Shown: positions 10,839 through 19,839 of the stretch, one piece after another
How the letters are laid out: the number at the start of each line of letters is the position of its first letter
Position numbering within the stretch: position 1 is the stretch's first letter
Source of the DNA: a virus
Length of the DNA: 20,069 nucleotides
Reading direction: 5' to 3' (one strand)
IMG/VR virus record: IMGVR_UViG_3300011116_000632
Span: 1 to 20,069 of that record
The notes under the pieces: model-generated
What the model was told of the DNA's origin: nothing
The model's database searches: none
Seen by the model: only the letters and a program-made list of their open reading frames with translations
Position numbers and translations under genes: made by a program

Positions 10839-11402
10839 ATGAAAACATCAGAAAGTATAAAAGAAATATCAAGTGCGCTAGTTCAGGCACAAAGCAATAT
10901 TAAATTTGCTATCAAAGATTCTACCAATCCACATTTCAAATCTCGTTACGCAGATTTAGGGTCTGTTATTGGCGCAGTAAAAGAATCTCTCAACGCAGTA
11001 GGCATCGCTTTTATTCAAACGCCTACTGAATCTAATACTGGCACTTTGGCTCTTACTACTCGGCTTATTCATCAATCAGGTGAATGGATTGAGGATACCG
11101 CTATTTGCCCTTTACAAAAGAATGACCCGCAAGGTTATGGCTCTGCTTTGACTTACCTACGCAGATATTCTTTAGCGTCTATCACAGGTCTGTATCAAGA
11201 CGATGACGATGGCGAATCTACTCGCATGAACCCTGAAGATTATTTGAAAAAAATACAATCCGCTACAAATCTCACGAGCCTGCAAAAAATCTACGGCTCA
11301 ATAATCGCTGAAGTCAAAAATGATAAAAATTTGACCAACGCTATTATTGCGGAAAAAGATAGATTGAAAAAGATATTTGAACTTGATAACGAGGAGCAAT
11401 AA
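10839..11402 (+). CDS. erf: ERF-family single-strand annealing protein
   Basis: A 187-aa member of the ERF superfamily of phage recombinases, which anneal complementary single strands. The core is clear: AIKDSTNPHFKSRYADLGSV, then VKESLNAVGIAFIQTP, GEWIEDTAICPLQKNDPQG, and the signature YGSALTYLRRYSLASITGL followed by DDDDGE. The C-terminal 45 residues are helical and variable, as usual. It starts a recombination block with YqaJ exonuclease and an SSB-like protein, the usual annealase-exonuclease partnership. The leader AAGGAATTTATAAGAC resembles that of the initiator gene. Confidence 0.93.
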   Translation: MKTSESIKEISSALVQAQSNIKFAIKDSTNPHFKSRYADLGSVIGAVKESLNAVGIAFIQTPTESNTGTLALTTRLIHQSGEWIEDTAICPLQKNDPQGYGSALTYLRRYSLASITGLYQDDDDGESTRMNPEDYLKKIQSATNLTSLQKIYGSIIAEVKNDKNLTNAIIAEKDRLKKIFELDNEEQ

Positions 11403-11632
11403 TGAAATTACCTAAAATAAACTGGCAAGATTTATCCAACAATGTATTTCTGTATTCTTGCATGGCACCAGTCTATGCAGGATTGATTGATGCGGGTTGG
11501 TATGTATTTACTAGCCAAACTTTAATCAATAAAAGTTGGGACTGGTATTCAGCAACACTTGTATTAGTATTTTTATTTTTGGCTATAGCCACATCTACAT
11601 ATCTTAAAAATCAAAAGGAAAAAACACAATGA
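11402..11632 (+). CDS. Small membrane protein, 76 aa
   Basis: Not recognised. A 76-aa protein with two hydrophobic segments, about residues 15-36 (FLYSCMAPVYAGLIDAGWYVF) and 48-68 (YSATLVLVFLFLAIATSTYL), and a basic C-terminus. The ATG overlaps the ERF stop (TAATG). Its place inside the recombination block suggests membrane-associated early function, nothing more specific. Confidence 0.6.
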   Translation: MKLPKINWQDLSNNVFLYSCMAPVYAGLIDAGWYVFTSQTLINKSWDWYSATLVLVFLFLAIATSTYLKNQKEKTQ

Positions 11633-11850
11633 AGACAACACAAGAAGATCGTTTAATTAAACATTTCAAAAAAATAAAAACAATCGACCCAATCAGAGCT
11701 TGGACCAATCTAGGCATCTATCGTTTATCTGCAAGAATTTTAGAGCTTCGTAAAAAAGGTTATGAAATTGATACGCAAAGAAAAGCAGTTAAAAATAGAT
11801 TTGGCGAGGACTGTGTCGTAGCCCAATATAGAATGCGAGGCATGCTATGA
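11629..11850 (+). CDS. Helix-turn-helix protein (HTH_39 type)
   Basis: A 73-aa winged-helix-like protein of the HTH_39 type. The pattern IDPIRAWTNLGIYRLSARIL, then ELRKKGYEIDTQ, and KNRFGEDCVVAQYRM is typical of this small phage/prophage family, which is predicted to bind DNA. It may regulate early transcription or assist recombination. The start overlaps the preceding stop by four bases. Confidence 0.8.
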   Translation: MKTTQEDRLIKHFKKIKTIDPIRAWTNLGIYRLSARILELRKKGYEIDTQRKAVKNRFGEDCVVAQYRMRGML

Positions 11851-11969
11851 CATTAACCAGCTTTTATGGCATTAAATTACCTATTACTGTTGATGATATT
11901 ATTCAGCAAGAAAAAAGACATATCAAAGTTTTATTTTTAAGACGATTGATGAGTTTAAAAAATGGATAA
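11847..11969 (+). CDS. Hypothetical peptide, 40 aa
   Basis: Not recognised. A 40-codon frame whose ATG overlaps the stop of the HTH gene (ATGA) and whose end overlaps the YqaJ gene by eight bases, so it fills the space exactly. A GAGG ribosome site precedes it. It is basic at the C-terminus, including the run LFLRRLMSLKNG. Confidence 0.5.
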   Translation: MTLTSFYGIKLPITVDDIIQQEKRHIKVLFLRRLMSLKNG

Positions 11970-12594
11970 TATTCAGCAGGGCAGTGATGAATGGTTCGAG
12001 ATGCGGTTAGGAAAAGTAACCGCAAGTCGAATTTCTGATTTATTGTCAAAAATTAAGTCAGGCGAAAGTTCAGGGCGTAAAAAGTTAAGAAACGAACTCA
12101 TACGAGAGCGTTTGACGCACAAACGCATCGAGGGTTATACCAATGCAGCCATGGAACGAGGAAACCTGTTAGAGCCTCTTGCAAGAGCTTCCTACGAGGT
12201 CCAGCGAAAATTGTTCGTAGATCAGGTGCCTTTTGTGAATCACCCTGTCATTTCGATGGCAGGTTGTTCACCTGATGGCTTAATTGGTAGTGATGGGCTA
12301 ATAGAAATCAAATGTCCTAACCCTGAAAACCATTTAGAGCATATTCTGAATGACGGAGTAGATTTAATAAATCGTTACTTCGCTCAATGTCAATGGCAAA
12401 TGGCATGCACAGATAGACGCTGGTGCGATCTCGTTTCTTTTGACCCTGACATCAGCGAGCCGTTGCAATTATTTATCACTCGAATTGTTAGAGATGATGA
12501 ATGGATTGCCCAGGCAGAAGCAGAAGTAGTCAAATTTAATGACGAAGTAGATACTATTGTAAAACAACTAAAGGAAAAATATAATGGCAATTAA
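11962..12594 (+). CDS. YqaJ-family exonuclease (lambda-exonuclease fold)
   Basis: A 210-aa YqaJ-like viral recombinase nuclease. It opens with QGSDEWFEMRLGKVTASRI, the family signature, and has the PD-(D/E)XK active site: E65 and E71 in MERGNLLEP, D105 in CSPDGLIG, E115 and K117 in LIEIKCP, and Q143/Q145 in FAQCQWQM. It digests one strand of duplex DNA to give 3' single-stranded tails for the ERF annealase encoded just upstream. The C-terminal helix is charged. Confidence 0.93.
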   Translation: MDNIQQGSDEWFEMRLGKVTASRISDLLSKIKSGESSGRKKLRNELIRERLTHKRIEGYTNAAMERGNLLEPLARASYEVQRKLFVDQVPFVNHPVISMAGCSPDGLIGSDGLIEIKCPNPENHLEHILNDGVDLINRYFAQCQWQMACTDRRWCDLVSFDPDISEPLQLFITRIVRDDEWIAQAEAEVVKFNDEVDTIVKQLKEKYNGN

Positions 12595-12879: not shown

Positions 12880-13830
12880 ATGCCAAGAACATTAACAGAT
12901 GATGATTTCATAAAACTTTGGAACGAGCATAAATCATGCACTAAAATATCCAAAGTAACAGGAATGGGAATACGCTCTATTCAAACAAGACGCAGAGCAG
13001 TAGAAGGCAGATATGGCGTTGAATTAAATATTAGTGATGAGCGTCCGTTTGTAGAAAAACATTCAGCAAGAATCAATCACCCTCTGAATGATGGTGTTGT
13101 TATTGTATTTTCTGATGCACATTTTTGGAACACAGATGAATCGACTGCGTTCAGAGCTTTAATTAAATGCATTAAAGAATTGAAGCCAAGAGTAGTCGTA
13201 GCCAATGGCGATGTATTCGATGGTGCTTCTATATCAAGACATGGTAGAATTGGTTTCCTTGAACATAGACCGACTGTTATTGAGGAATTAAAAGCTTGTA
13301 AAGAAATGCTAGGCAGAATTGAAGACGCCTGCAAAACAGTCAAACCTAGCCCATTCCTAACATGGACTTTAGGTAATCACGATAGCCGTTTTGAAACATA
13401 CTTGGCTGCCGTAGCTCCGCAATATGAATTTATAGATGGCTTTCATTTAAAAGACCATTTCCCTGCTTGGCGTCCTTGCTGGGCAACATGGGTTAATGAT
13501 GTATGTATCAAACACAGATGGAAAGGTGGCGTTCATGCTACACACAATAACACTTTGGGGTCAGGAACATCAATGGTTACTGGGCATTTACATTCTCTTA
13601 AAGTTACTCCTTATACCGATTATACTGGTACTCGTTATGGCGTGGATACTGGGACGCTAGCAGAAATAGAGGGCGACCAATTTTTAAACTATACGGAAGA
13701 TAATCCAAAAAACTGGCGTTCAGGTTTTGCGGTATTAACATTCCACAAGGGCAGACTTCTACAACCTGAATTAGTAGAAGTCATGGAAGATGGTGTTGTT
13801 TGTTTTAGGGGGAAAGTCTATGAAGTATAA
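12880..13830 (+). CDS. Calcineurin-like metallophosphoesterase with N-terminal HTH
   Basis: A 316-aa protein. Residues 1-45 form a helix-turn-helix-like segment (CTKISKVTGMGIRSIQTRRR); from about 70 on is a metallophosphoesterase with the dimetal motifs D79/H81 (FSDAHF), D111 (ANGDVFDG), N166/H167/D168 (LGNHDSR), H219 and GHLH at 235-238. Phage members may act as DNA exonucleases or phosphodiesterases; the SbcD/Mre11-like fold is the reference. The N-terminal DNA-binding segment suggests that the substrate is nucleic acid. The ribosome site AAGGAAAATT follows the terminator directly. Confidence 0.88.
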   Translation: MPRTLTDDDFIKLWNEHKSCTKISKVTGMGIRSIQTRRRAVEGRYGVELNISDERPFVEKHSARINHPLNDGVVIVFSDAHFWNTDESTAFRALIKCIKELKPRVVVANGDVFDGASISRHGRIGFLEHRPTVIEELKACKEMLGRIEDACKTVKPSPFLTWTLGNHDSRFETYLAAVAPQYEFIDGFHLKDHFPAWRPCWATWVNDVCIKHRWKGGVHATHNNTLGSGTSMVTGHLHSLKVTPYTDYTGTRYGVDTGTLAEIEGDQFLNYTEDNPKNWRSGFAVLTFHKGRLLQPELVEVMEDGVVCFRGKVYEV

Positions 13831-14014: not shown

Positions 14015-14041
14015 AAAAAAGGGGTTTTTAAACCCCTTTTG
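14012..14041. terminator. Convergent bidirectional terminator
   Basis: GGGGTTT-TT-AAACCCC (14021-14036) flanked by A-rich and T-rich runs. On the minus strand the stem is followed by eight T, a strong terminator for the pqqA side; on the plus strand four T follow. It separates the rightward early block from the leftward block. Confidence 0.9.
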
Positions 14042-14138: not shown

Positions 14139-14210
14139 TTACTTATTCATTACATACATAGTTACTTCAAAGCCAAATCTCATTTCTGTTGCTGCTGGTT
14201 TAGTCCACAT
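14139..14210 (-). CDS. pqqA: PqqA, PQQ precursor peptide
   Basis: A 23-aa peptide that reads as PqqA, the ribosomal precursor of pyrroloquinoline quinone. The N-terminus MWTKPA and core RFGFEVTMY match bacterial PqqA closely; E15 and Y19, spaced E-x3-Y, are the two residues that PqqE cross-links and from which PQQ is built. The ATG at 14210 is preceded by AAGGAGCATATT, an excellent ribosome site, and the stop is TAA. No other pqq gene is in the window, so processing would depend on host PqqB-E. It sits after a small holin-like gene and before a strong terminator. Being so short, it is invisible to ordinary gene callers. A chance match of this quality with a perfect ribosome site is very unlikely. 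Confidence 0.9.
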
Positions 14211-14256
14211 AATATGCTCCTTAAAAGTTAATGTAGGTTTTCACTCTACAAACATA

Positions 14257-14279: not shown

Positions 14280-14295
14280 ACCATCAAGAAAATCA

Positions 14296-14472
14296 TTATT
14301 TATTAAATTTTTTTTTGAAATGCTCGTATATTCTAATGCTATACCAAACGATAGATAATAAAGCTGCTATCGCTGGAAGTATTTGAGCTATCGTGCCTAA
14401 TACTGTAATTCCTGAAATAGTATCAACTACATGCTTTGTATGTTCGTTGATGTCCTGAATATGTTTAATCAT
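14296..14472 (-). CDS. Small holin-like membrane protein, 58 aa
   Basis: A 58-aa protein: a polar N-terminal 20 residues, then a hydrophobic segment at about residues 20-47 with TVLGTIAQILPAIAALLSIVWY, then IRIYEHF and a lysine-rich tail (KKKFNK). The LPAIAALLSIVWYxIRIYE pattern is that of small T7-type (class II) holins in aquatic podophage-like genomes. The start is ATG at 14472 after a weak GGGAAA site. It is distinct from the 3TM holin at 874-1269. No endolysin is adjacent on this side. Confidence 0.68.
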   Translation of the reverse strand: MIKHIQDINEHTKHVVDTISGITVLGTIAQILPAIAALLSIVWYSIRIYEHFKKKFNK

Positions 14473-14484
14473 TTTAATTTCCCA

Positions 14485-14670
14485 CTAATTAACAAGATGC
14501 TTTTTAATAGCAATATAAAGATTGTCAGAGCTAAATATATGAGCAATAGACCCATCAGATAATAAAATAACCAAACAATGTTTATTATCGTAGTAATCAA
14601 AGTCAATATTTTGAATTGTTTTATTTTGTAGAAAATTGTAAACTTCATCAATTGTTTGTATAGAACTCAA
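14485..14670 (-). CDS. Hypothetical protein, 61 aa
   Basis: Not recognised. A 61-aa protein with a TTG start that overlaps the 3' end of the glycosyltransferase gene. The segment IQNIDFDYYDNKHCLVILLSDGS has the look of a genuine small beta-rich domain. There is no ATG in the frame and the ribosome site (AAAGG, about 13 bases upstream) is poorly placed. A competing hydrophobic frame on the same strand (14469-14651) looks like a shadow. Confidence 0.45.
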   Translation of the reverse strand: MSSIQTIDEVYNFLQNKTIQNIDFDYYDNKHCLVILLSDGSIAHIFSSDNLYIAIKKHLVN

Positions 14671-15694
14671 GATTGGCTTTTAACCTTTCGTTATCAGGTT
14701 CAAATTGTAACGCAATTTCCCCATGTTCGATAGCCAAATCTTTTTTGCCTAAATGATGCGCTGCTATCGCAATATAATCATGCGGTAATGCGCTCCATAC
14801 TGCTGGATTCATAGTATATACCAATGCTTTATCTTTAATTTCTAATGCTCGTAAACCAGCATCTAAAGATTCTTGCCACATTGATTTCTTGTAATATGAT
14901 TCAGATAATTCTACCCAAGGTTCACGAGTGTTAGGTGCTTCATTACAAGCTTTTTTAAACCACTCAACACCATTTTGACCGAGCTCGTCATAGCATTTGC
15001 CTAATAATCTCATAGCATAACAACGCTCATTTGGCCATGTAGCTTCAGGCATATCTAAATATTTGTTTAAAGCTACTACGGCATCTAACCATTTATGGTA
15101 AAAGGTTAGCTCCCTTGCATAATAAAAAGCGTTTCTAGGACATCTAGGGTCCTCTGTAACCGCTAATAATAATAGGTCTAAGTATTGGCCTCTAGATTTT
15201 GTTGGGTCAGGTTTATGAACCACCAACAACATATCTGTTTGAGCCCATACTTCTGTAATTCTAGCATCAGGAACAGGATATTCATGGCACGGGTGATGCC
15301 AATGATAGCCATGTCTTGCGTGTATTTTTTCGTAATAGAATGCGATACCTTGACCCCAGTCAAATTTGTATCTTAATCGAGTAGTGTCAGCTTTCCATAC
15401 TCGTTCTATTTCCTCACGCCAACCCTTTTGTAATTCCTCATCTAAATCTAAAGAAACACAAACATCAAAGTCTTTAGGTATTAAGGATAAAGCAGCATCA
15501 CGAGCAATATCAAATCGCCAAGGAGTAACACCAATGCTATAAACAGTAGCTCCACAATCTCTCGCTTTTCCCACTGTGTCATCTGTAGAACCTGTATCAG
15601 CAATTAAGATTAAGTCGGCGTCTTTGGCAGATTGACAAAAACGCTCGACAAATTGTTCCTCATTTTTTGATATTGCATATACTGCTATTTTCAT
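14648..15694 (-). CDS. GT2-family glycosyltransferase with TPR region
   Basis: A 348-aa protein. Residues 1-110 are a GT-A family 2 glycosyltransferase: SKNEEQF (10-15), the nucleotide-binding ADTGSTDDT (32-40), and the metal-binding SLDLDEE (81-87). From about residue 215 to the end there are TPR-like helix pairs (AMRLLGKCYDELGQ; WVELSESYYKKSMWQESLDAGLRALEI; IAAHHLGKKDLAIEHGEIAL). No membrane segments are seen. GT2-TPR proteins like this occur in phages and are thought to modify virion or host glycans. It lies directly downstream of the collagen-like fibre gene, which makes the fibre a plausible substrate. Ribosome site AAAGGAC. Confidence 0.85.
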   Translation of the reverse strand: MKIAVYAISKNEEQFVERFCQSAKDADLILIADTGSTDDTVGKARDCGATVYSIGVTPWRFDIARDAALSLIPKDFDVCVSLDLDEELQKGWREEIERVWKADTTRLRYKFDWGQGIAFYYEKIHARHGYHWHHPCHEYPVPDARITEVWAQTDMLLVVHKPDPTKSRGQYLDLLLLAVTEDPRCPRNAFYYARELTFYHKWLDAVVALNKYLDMPEATWPNERCYAMRLLGKCYDELGQNGVEWFKKACNEAPNTREPWVELSESYYKKSMWQESLDAGLRALEIKDKALVYTMNPAVWSALPHDYIAIAAHHLGKKDLAIEHGEIALQFEPDNERLKANLEFYTNN

Positions 15695-15714: not shown

Positions 15715-18207
15715 TTAACTTGGATATACGGCATCTACTAATTGTCCTGCACTTAACGCGACTGCAAATACAACAGATGTTCCACTTGATACAGTAACAT
15801 CTACGCCATTTCTCATTAAAACACCTTGTAAATATACACTAATTTTGCCTGATGTATATGTTGCTGATGTAGTAAATGTTGTTTGTGAAGCAGTAGCAGT
15901 AAATGAATCATAACGCAATAACGCTGCTCCGCTAGTTCCTGTAGGTCCTGTAGGTCCTCCTGCGCCAGTAGTTCCTGTTGGTCCCGTAGGTCCAGCAACA
16001 GTAGAAGCTGCACCAGTTGGTCCAGTAGGACCTCCTGCTCCCGTTGCACCTGTGCTGCCTGTTGGACCAGTTGGACCGACATTTCCTTGCACGCCTTGAA
16101 TACCTTGCACACCTTGTGCGCCTGTTGGTCCTGTTGGACCTACTGCGCCATTAGAACCAGCAGTTCCTGTTGGACCTGTCGGACCTGCGTTGCCTTGTAT
16201 TCCTTGTGGACCAGTTGGACCAGCGACACCTTGTATGCCTTGTTCACCCTGTATTCCTTGTGGACCTGTAGGACCGACTGCACCAGTGCTTCCTGTGGGT
16301 CCTGTTGGACCAACATTACCCTGACTTCCTGTAGGACCTACTGCACCTGTGTTTCCAGTTGGACCTGTAGGACCAACGGCACCTGTATTTCCTACTGCTC
16401 CTGTTGGACCAGTTGGACCTACTGCACCTGTTTCGCCCTGTATGCCCTGAACACCCTGTGGACCAGTTGGACCAACATTTCCTTGATCGCCTTGATTTCC
16501 TGTTGGACCAGTTGGACCGACCGCTCCTGTTGAGCCTGTATTTCCTTGTGGACCTGTAGGTCCTACATCACCCTGAATTCCTGTAGGTCCTGTAGGTCCA
16601 ACGGCACCTGTTGAGCCGACTGCACCTGTAGGTCCAGTAGGTCCGACATTGCCTTGATTTCCTGTAGGTCCGACATCGCCCTGAGCCCCTGTAGGTCCAG
16701 TAGGTCCAGCAACAGTAGATGCTGCTCCTGTTGGTCCTGTTGCTCCTATGTTTCCTGTTGCACCGACACTTCCAGTTGGTCCTGTAGGTCCAATATTTCC
16801 TTGAGGACCTGTTGGACCTGTTATACCTACTGATTGAATGATAGCAATTAAATTATGATTGTTTGCAAAACCAGTTGTTCCTGTTCCTGCTGAAGTATCT
16901 AAAGATACTGGCACAGTAATAGAAGTATTAGGAATTACTGTTGGAGTTGCGGTTACTAACCATTTTTGATAGTTATTAGAATTAGTTGCATCTTGTAAAA
17001 TTAAAACATCATTCGTTTTTAATATTCCTAAAAATACATCAATGTCAATTACATTAGATGTTAAATGACTAAATACAAGATTAGTTGCTGAAATTTGAGT
17101 AGCATTATTCCAAAAAACATGACCATTTGTTGGTGTGCCACTTGTTTGAGTTGTGTCTGCTTGATATTGATAATAGCTAGATGATATTCCGTCAGCACCT
17201 TGTGGACCTGTAGGACCAGTAGCTCCTACTGCTCCAGCATTTCCAGTTGGACCAACATCACCTTGAGCTCCTGTTGGACCTGTTGGACCTACGGCACCTG
17301 TTGCACCAACACTTCCTGTTGGACCAGTTGGACCTGTATTTCCGATATTTCCTTGTGCGCCAGTTGGACCGACACTTCCTGTTGGACCTTGGCTTCCTGT
17401 TGGACCAACATCGCCAGTTGCACCAGTTGGACCTGTAGGACCAGCGATTGTGCTTGCTGCACCTGCTGCGCCAGTTGGACCTGTAGGACCAGTATTTCCT
17501 GTTGCACCAACATTTCCTGTAGGTCCTGTTGGACCAGCTACACCAGCATTTCCTTGAAGCCCTTGAACGCCCTGTGGACCTGTGGGTCCTGCTACTGTAG
17601 AAGCATCGCCTTGAGCTCCTGTTGGACCTGTTGGACCATTTGTGCCATTAGTTCCTGCTGCTCCTGTTGGACCTGCAATAGTAGAAGCTGCACCTGTCGG
17701 TCCAGTAGGACCTGTAATTGAAACACCTGATGCACCTGTTGGACCTGTGTCGCCTTGTATTCCTTGTATTCCTTGTATGCCCTGCGCTCCTGTTGGACCA
17801 GCGTTTCCTGCTGCTCCTGTTGGACCTGTTGGACCTCCTGCTCCACCAGCACCTGTTGTTCCTGTTGGACCTGTGGGTCCTGCTGCACCTGCATTTCCTT
17901 GAATACCCTGAACGCCTTGTGAGCCTGTTGGTCCTGCTGCACCTGTAGCACCTGTTGGACCAGTTCCGCTAGGACCAGTAGGACCTGCGACAGTAGAGGC
18001 AGCACCAGTAGGACCTGTTGGTCCAGTTCCTGTAGGACCAGTTGGACCAGCTACTGTTGAAGCAGCTCCAGTAGCTCCAGTAGGACCAGTGGGACCTGTG
18101 CCACCTGCACCTGTAGGACCTGTAGGTCCAAGAGTTCCTGATGTGCCTGCTGGACCAGTTGGTCCAATAATGCCTTTATCAACGACTAATGTAATTTCGG
18201 AAGCCAT
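15715..18207 (-). CDS. Collagen-like tail-fibre-type protein, 830 aa
   Basis: An 830-aa protein. Residues 15-340 and 464-760 are Gly-X-Y repeats, mostly GPTGPT with GAQ, GVQ, GIQ and GNV variants and a recurring [13 protein letters not shown] unit. Between them (341-463) is a non-collagen insert with [15 protein letters not shown] and [15 protein letters not shown]. The last 70 residues ([15 protein letters not shown], then [20 protein letters not shown]) match a widespread C-terminal phage fibre module. The first 14 residues are not repeated. Such proteins form trimeric triple helices on virions, as with Bacillus BclA on spores. It is probably a tail fibre or side fibre. Threonine in the Y position offers glycosylation sites. 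Confidence 0.85.
15928..16818 (-). repeat. Collagen repeat block 2 (coding)
   Basis: Tandem nine-base units encoding Gly-X-Y, on the plus strand seen as varied GGACCTGTTGGACCAGT-like repeats. They cover residues 464-760 of the fibre protein. Such arrays recombine easily, so length variation between related phages is expected. Confidence 0.85.
17188..18165 (-). repeat. Collagen repeat block 1 (coding)
   Basis: Tandem nine-base units encoding Gly-X-Y for residues 15-340 of the fibre protein, with a repeated AASTVAG segment at several points. This block is separated from block 2 by the 369-base insert at 16819-17187. Confidence 0.85.
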
Positions 18208-18745: not shown

Positions 18746-19159
18746 TTATGTCTTATTTTTTAAAATGTAATTAGCAATGATTTTACCATACTTAATTGCA
18801 TTTTTCTTGGGTATTTTAAAATCATATTGTGTTGGATTTTGAAATATTACATCAGTATTTGAGTATTTACTAGATTTAATTGTATCAACCCATATTAATA
18901 TATCAGCATTAAATATAGCTCTGCTTTCTTTTGTAGGAGCTATAAAGTCAGCTATAACATAATCTGCATCACTTATATTAGCCAATTCATTGATTCTTTT
19001 AGCTTGTCTTATTCTACCCTCAATACTAAAATCCCAATCATTATATTTTTCTCTTATTTCGTCTGCATTTAATCTTATATTGTTTGGAAGTAATTTTGCT
19101 AATTCTTTAGCTAATTCGGATTTGCCACTTCCTGACAAACCCATAATAAGTATTTTCAT
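18746..19159 (-). CDS. APS-kinase-like P-loop kinase
   Basis: A 137-aa P-loop kinase. Walker A is GLSGSGKS at residues 7-14. IRLNADEIREKYNDWDFSIEGRIRQ then follows with the residues expected of adenylylsulfate kinases (NADE-x-R, DFS-x2-GR), and YVIADFIAPTKESR plus LIWVDTI match the later APS-kinase motifs. CysC makes PAPS, the sulfate donor, from APS and ATP. At 137 aa it is shorter than CysC (about 200 aa), so substrate identity is open; it may phosphorylate another small molecule. It overlaps the sulfotransferase-like gene by four bases. Confidence 0.78.
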   Translation of the reverse strand: MKILIMGLSGSGKSELAKELAKLLPNNIRLNADEIREKYNDWDFSIEGRIRQAKRINELANISDADYVIADFIAPTKESRAIFNADILIWVDTIKSSKYSNTDVIFQNPTQYDFKIPKKNAIKYGKIIANYILKNKT

Positions 19160-19839
19160 ACAAAATATTTAAGTTTAGGAAATTGCTCTATTATTTTTTC
19201 TTGAATTTTTAATATTTTAAAATCTATTGGTATATAAGGCATAATATATTCGTCTGTATTACCTGCTTCATCTACATTTATATACTTATTACTTTTTAAA
19301 AAATCATTTTTAATATGTTTTACATGAAAGTTAATTTCAATAGGAACATATTTAATGCCAAAAAATTCACATACTTGTTTAGCTATAAACTGTGGATTTT
19401 TAAATAAATCATCTGCATCTATAAACATAATGTCTTTAGAATCTATAGCCCAAAACATTCTATCTGCCCATAAAGTTGCTTGCAATAATTCAGGACTATA
19501 ATCATGTTCAATTAATTTTGTTTTTCTGTGAAATCTTTTTTCCATCACATTAAGATGAAAAGCTACTGCTTGGCAATCTTTTTTCTTTTGTATTTGATCG
19601 TGTAATTTACGATATAAAAATACTTTTTTACCTTTTATAAATGGCATTAAATAACAACATACACTTGAATATTTAACAATCTCATTATCTTTTTGATGTT
19701 GTTCTATAAACTCTAATGGGTTTTCTTGATTGTAAACTTGATGTGACCAATCGGGTTCAGCTAATGTAGGAAGTGATTTGCTTAATAAAGCAGTTAAATA
19801 AGTTGAGCCACAATGTGAGGTATGAAATATTGAATACAT
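19156..19839 (-). CDS. Sulfotransferase-like protein
   Basis: A 227-aa protein. The N-terminal SIFHTSHCGSTYLTALLSKS at residues 3-22 has the shape of the 5'-phosphosulfate-binding loop of sulfotransferases (after strand 1, with the small-residue turn CGSTYL). A later helix-turn pair with FIAKQVCEFFGIKYVP matches the C-terminal region of the same fold (F-x-G-I). The usual second signature with Ser/Arg binding the 3'-phosphate is not clear to me. It overlaps the APS-kinase-like gene, which may supply PAPS. The acceptor is unknown; a fibre, a lipopolysaccharide sugar or a small molecule are options. Confidence 0.65.
   Translation of the reverse strand: MYSIFHTSHCGSTYLTALLSKSLPTLAEPDWSHQVYNQENPLEFIEQHQKDNEIVKYSSVCCYLMPFIKGKKVFLYRKLHDQIQKKKDCQAVAFHLNVMEKRFHRKTKLIEHDYSPELLQATLWADRMFWAIDSKDIMFIDADDLFKNPQFIAKQVCEFFGIKYVPIEINFHVKHIKNDFLKSNKYINVDEAGNTDEYIMPYIPIDFKILKIQEKIIEQFPKLKYFV

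Follow-up and report, generated by a model that had tools for sequence, protein, structure and literature searches.

A stretch of 20,069 bases deposited as an IMG/VR virus record (hereinafter, the window) encodes a 23-amino acid precursor peptide of PQQ, the cofactor of methanol oxidation; the peptide is PqqA. Most probably, this is a genuine, self-contained pqqA gene of a Methylophilaceae phage: its transcription would be turned on by a host activator, host enzymes would make PQQ from its product, and methanol dehydrogenase would stay supplied.

A pqqA gene in a phage genome fragment

The pqqA gene (14139..14210 on the minus strand, stop codon included) is identified by its translation, by profile matches and by its homologues. 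The open reading frame matches TIGR02107 with 40.4 bits (cut-off 20, E-value 1.8e-10) and PF08042 with 42.4 bits (cut-off 21.1, E-value 6.4e-11), i.e., at about twice the curated cut-offs, and on these E-values chance is excluded as the source of the matches. The preliminary description had read this 23-codon frame as pqqA and had proposed a profile search as the check; the strong matches to both profiles bear it out. The peptide contains E15 and Y19, the residues joined by PqqE, in the E-x3-Y spacing noted earlier, and the reported ribosome site is present as well, a Shine-Dalgarno sequence AAGGAG read from the sequence at 14217..14222 (minus strand, 14222-14217 in the direction of reading), 6 nt 5' of the ATG. 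An intrinsic terminator with a 10 bp stem, a 4 nt loop and a T-run is predicted 3' of the gene (14017..14040, minus strand). The gene indeed occupies an apparent gap, as had been claimed: no other likely gene is found between the end of a 74-aa ORF on the plus strand (14014) and the end of a 58-aa ORF on the minus strand (14296). An Rfam search detects no RNA element at the pqqA locus, the fold of the pqqA transcript is not unusual (z -1.3), and a plain sigma-70 scan finds no good promoter for the window pqqA.

The window has 17 proteins in common with the methylotroph phage P19250A and carries phage-type genes for ERF, YqaJ, a holin and an M15 peptidase. By this gene content, it represents part of the genome of a P19250A-like methylotroph phage, in line with the earlier assignment of pqqA to a phage. 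The methylotrophic host that had been proposed is likewise supported: the kinship with P19250A and the identity of the peptide with many Methylophilaceae PqqA peptides point to a host within Methylophilaceae. On one side of the gene, a rightward early module (metallophosphoesterase, YqaJ, ERF) ends; on the other lies a leftward module. In the early module, the ERF and YqaJ recombination genes, a phage hallmark, lie at 10839..12594 (plus strand), and a calcineurin-like metallophosphoesterase gene near the end that converges on pqqA lies at 12880..13830 (plus strand), in a region with a blastn match to P19250A. Just upstream of the pqqA cassette and outside the gene itself, the 58-aa ORF (14296..14472, minus strand) encodes a predicted membrane-spanning protein with no PHROG match.

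Several other genes of the window, all on the minus strand, are also of note. The region 2010-2810 encodes an oxygenase domain of the Tet/JBP-type 2OG-Fe(II) family (PF12851, with a score that exceeds the cut-off), a hint that bases of the phage DNA are modified. Immediately past the small ORFs that lie upstream of pqqA, a 348-aa protein (14648-15694) shows weak matches to glycosyltransferase family 2 and TPR; it is followed by an 830-aa collagen-like protein (15715-18207) that consists mostly of G-P-T-G repeats and is a probable tail fibre, and by adjoining APS-kinase-like and sulfotransferase-like genes (18746-19839).

Spread among phages and selection on the peptide

A tblastn search identifies PqqA in nine Methylophilales-infecting isolates, namely P19250A, Venkman, MEP301, MEP401, MEP402 and four Melnitz strains (a set that is not claimed to be complete, given that NCBI taxonomy lists further Methylophilales phages, e.g., MEP431-434), and also in the Manatee Spring phage MW202481. 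In all tblastn-matched phages, pqqA is unannotated or lies beneath a "hypothetical" ORF, on the opposite strand in the cases inspected. MW202697, a relative of MEP402 with 75% terminase identity, is not among the tblastn pqqA matches. Two scans of IMG/VR with degenerate DNA patterns, a non-random sampling, retrieved at least 119 loci each; every viral locus retrieved encodes PqqA, and the number of viral loci with pqqA exceeds 170 as a lower bound. The IMG/VR contigs with more divergent PqqA peptides encode portal, terminase and head (capsid) proteins. Because the terminases of P19250A, MEP301 and MEP402 are absent from one another's best matches, and Melnitz is T4-like, several unrelated lineages carry pqqA. 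Thus, the expectation that the same gene would be found in related phages is borne out among both isolates and IMG/VR loci, and it extends to unrelated methylophages.

Neither pqqB-E nor xoxF was found near pqqA in the retrieved viral loci, most of which are parts of genomes, with a positive control that worked. Matches to "Acinetobacter phage MD-2021a" (CAKLQF020000010.1 and CAKLQH020000055.1) were set aside: CAKLQF020000010.1 contains a pqqABCDE operon beside ppk and looks like bacterial DNA filed as phage. The alphaproteobacterial-type PqqA pattern retrieves only 3 viral contigs. Stand-alone PqqA of this type (e.g., MKWSAPIVQEVCVGMEVTSY...) is encoded on the large IMG/VR viral contigs L406, L407 and L408, one of which is 265 kb long; the stretch examined contains no match to PqqB-E.

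The phage coding sequence is under strong purifying selection: across 163 distinct viral pqqA genes, with redundancy removed by identity only, dS is about 1.26 and dN about 0.115 (dN/dS ~0.09). The first scan pattern fixed F-E-V-T-M-Y, so that conservation in this segment is partly imposed by the search, whereas the second pattern covered residues 1-13 only and left E15 and Y19 free. Among the loci retrieved with the second pattern, replacements of M18 by L and of V16 by I occur, and E15 and Y19 are always kept; altogether, this pair is retained in 141 of 141 viral loci, including every locus from the N-terminal-only pattern. The loss of the Glu/Tyr pair that would have told against the original reading is therefore not seen in the homologues.

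These data bear on the most serious alternative, under which the peptide would act otherwise than as a PQQ precursor, e.g., by occupying PqqD/PqqE in competition or by giving rise to another modified peptide. Position 4 of the phage peptides varies (K/T/S/Q), as do positions 6-8, so that PqqD binding could differ in some phages. However, E15, Y19, G13, F14 and T17 are invariant in the 163 phage genes (partly by search design), many phage peptides, that of the window included, are letter-for-letter identical to the host peptide, and no host-type pqq enzyme gene lies near pqqA in the viral loci. A non-precursor role thus appears unlikely, and a role as PQQ precursor is preferred.

A predicted upstream element shared with host pqqA genes

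Upstream of both phage and Methylophilaceae pqqA genes, we predict a shared element, here named the PQQ box, with the dyad TAATGA-TTT-TCATTA. Motif discovery was run separately on non-redundant upstream regions of 91 phage and 95 host genes and yielded nwTTAATGATTTTmykTAkn for phages (log-likelihood 437 vs 72 for shuffled sequences) and CTmATGATTTTCATTAG for hosts (867 vs 74). When the host model is applied to the complete genome of LSUCC0401, an OM43 strain, the sites ranked first and second are upstream of pqqA genes, and the site ranked sixth is 77 nt upstream of pqqB. A strict box pattern finds 20 sites in six further host genomes, 15 of them before pqqA and 2 before pqqB, compared with 1 site for the reversed control. 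The box therefore looks like the mark of a PQQ-specific regulon in Methylophilaceae. In one methylotroph genome (G009:C1:63944, L395), a perfect PQQ box has no adjoining pqq gene and is located near genes for a DNA polymerase IV-like and a glycine-zipper-like protein. The half-sites resemble those of the Fur box, but the best Fur-consensus sites in LSUCC0401 lie away from the pqq genes, and Fur finds no clear support. No description of a PQQ operator or box in Methylophilaceae was found in the open-access literature.

In the window, the predicted PQQ box (TAAATAATGATTTTCTTGAT, 14283..14302, minus strand) is the best site of the whole stretch under a model built from host promoters only. It shares bases with the final codons of the 58-aa ORF and is located 72 nt upstream of pqqA, with its center 81 nt upstream of the ATG. 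Of six other phages scored with the same host-only model, five have their top site 49-93 nt upstream of pqqA (P19250A, Venkman, MEP301, MW202481 and a 12-kb Melnitz stretch); in MEP402, the box is poor under this model and the top site is not upstream of pqqA. Among 129 non-redundant phage pqqA upstream regions, 58% score above the 99th percentile of 1,752 other viral ORF upstream regions (Mann-Whitney p ~6e-55). Thus, the control region of phage pqqA appears to be wired into the host switch for PQQ genes. The presence of a host-type regulatory element upstream of phage pqqA goes beyond the preliminary description.

When host promoters are aligned on the box center, a second half-site is found at +15 to +21 and the -10 hexamer at exactly +53, with a strong -10 at this position in 33 of 90 promoters. 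In phages, a strong -10 at +29 to +34 (mostly +30 to +33) is present in 59 of 109 promoters vs 12.6 in shuffles; the window's own -10 is weak (AACAAT, 4/6, at +30). With a transcription start placed about 12 nt beyond the first base of the -10, the box center falls near -65 in hosts and near -42 in phages. Classical activators bind near -65 (class I) or near -42 (class II). Judged by this geometry alone, the box would be a class I activator site in hosts and a class II site in phages, and activation would be more probable than repression.

The same observations weigh against the possibility that the many copies of the box serve as a decoy that titrates the host regulator, with the peptide secondary. 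Conservation of the box across many unrelated phages would fit such a role, but strong purifying selection on the coding sequence would not, and across the phage set the -10 tends to keep a particular spacing to the box, as is typical of a promoter. We consider a decoy quite improbable and return to the box as part of a putative pqqA promoter.

The surroundings of the gene indicate that this predicted promoter belongs to an independent unit. Among the 163 phage pqqA loci with both neighbors known, the upstream neighbor is on the opposite strand in 74 (45%) and both neighbors are antisense to pqqA in 61; the median length of the upstream gap is 116 nt. At the same junction, pqqA is co-directional with the early genes in P19250A and runs against them in the window. 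The DNA of the window resembles that of Venkman, MEP301 and MEP401/402 only over 85-108 bp around pqqA. Judged by its position, phage pqqA is an autonomous cassette, a transcription unit that would have a promoter region of its own, with the host-shared upstream site, and likewise a separate ribosome site and terminator. Although hosts carry many scattered pqqA copies and accidental pick-up would be easy, there is next to no likelihood that the gene is a passenger or an artefact, i.e., a piece of host DNA placed in viral contigs by faulty assembly or a functionless recombination relic: pqqA is present in complete genomes of cultured phages, which already contradict this view, and on contigs that also encode terminase, portal and capsid proteins, and it is kept under strong purifying selection while orientation and flanks change.

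A broader scenario, to which we incline with less assurance than to the function of the gene itself, is that the PQQ box and pqqA form a mobile, orientation-independent cassette that was taken up by several unrelated methylophage lineages and plugs into a PQQ-specific host activator, with the box moved from the class I to the compact class II position. Methylophages would then very commonly target PqqA supply, and the small size of the gene, only 23 codons, would explain why this was overlooked.

Proposed role and relation to known systems

PqqA is consumed at one molecule per PQQ and is the only part of the pathway so used, PqqB-E being enzymes; hence, a 72-bp gene would be enough for a phage to affect the pathway. 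During infection, the activator of the host PQQ regulon would switch on phage pqqA, host PqqE/PqqD would cross-link the phage peptide at Glu15-Tyr19, and PqqB/PqqC would complete PQQ. The phage would thus supply a consumable substrate to host PqqB-E, and the PQQ-dependent methanol dehydrogenase would stay active. Binding of an activator to the box, expression of pqqA and a rise in PQQ or methanol oxidation are accordingly predicted from the sequence. In a study cited in PMC9851590, 70-80% of added PqqA was converted to PQQ by a Gluconobacter cell extract, and additional PqqA may raise PQQ output. Against this stands the fact that the hosts already hold several pqqA copies, so that PqqA need not be limiting. 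The gene is present in all 41 Methylophilaceae genomes scanned, in 1 to 12 copies, and multiple copies with typically a single pqqBCDE cluster have been reported for this family (PMC4109929). The maximum of 12 copies, in 2.1 Mb, belongs to a genome (G036) in which the pqqA positions match LSUCC0135 contigs L148 and L162.

Overall, these observations suggest that viruses of methanol-eating bacteria sustain the oxidation of methanol during their own replication. Methylophilaceae are major consumers of methanol, which in lakes and coastal seas is an important source of carbon; should pqqA be common among their phages, these viruses would exert widespread control over methanol oxidation. Phage-host pairs already in culture (P19250A/LD28, Venkman and Melnitz/H5P1, MEP301) make the proposed role testable, and the PQQ box provides a first handle on the regulation of PQQ synthesis in Methylophilaceae. 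No mention of phage pqqA was found in the open-access papers on OM43 phages, a silence which shows that metabolic genes of 23 codons are missed by gene callers.

With respect to the PqqA family (TIGR02107/PF08042), the window peptide is typical in its length, its MWTKP start and its R-x-G-F-E-V-T-M-Y core with E15 and Y19; unlike the usual members, its gene is phage-encoded, without pqqB-E beside it. The stand-alone pqqA genes present in multiple copies in Methylophilaceae (PMC4109929, PMC9851590) are similar to the phage gene in that each has its own upstream region with a PQQ box and, mostly, a terminator-like hairpin at the 3' end. The spacing differs: the center of the host box is 53 nt from the -10, compared with about 30 nt for the phage box.

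Phage pqqA as such has already been described once and is not new: pqqA and methanol dehydrogenase were reported in a Lake Baikal T4-like methylophage population, VP_266, likewise with a predicted role in providing PQQ to the methanol dehydrogenase of Methylophilaceae (Coutinho et al. 2020, PMC7678222). The same paper states that P19250A encodes none of those genes; contrary to this statement, P19250A does encode an unannotated pqqA. A 2026 study of reservoirs lists viral pqqA, pqqD and pqqE (PMC13188868). VP_266 is a single metagenomic population that also encodes methanol dehydrogenase, and its report includes no shared upstream element, whereas here pqqA alone is found in many unrelated phages together with such an element.

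The gene resides in what is, by its content, a true phage genome and is a host homologue kept by selection, as expected of an auxiliary metabolic gene; phage pqqA would be a clear example of a viral metabolic gene that seemingly draws on a regulon of the host. With cyanophage auxiliary metabolic genes of the psbA type, the phage provides the one host component consumed in the course of infection. Phage pqqA would follow the same logic, the difference being that psbA encodes an enzyme subunit and pqqA a 23-aa peptide substrate that is modified.
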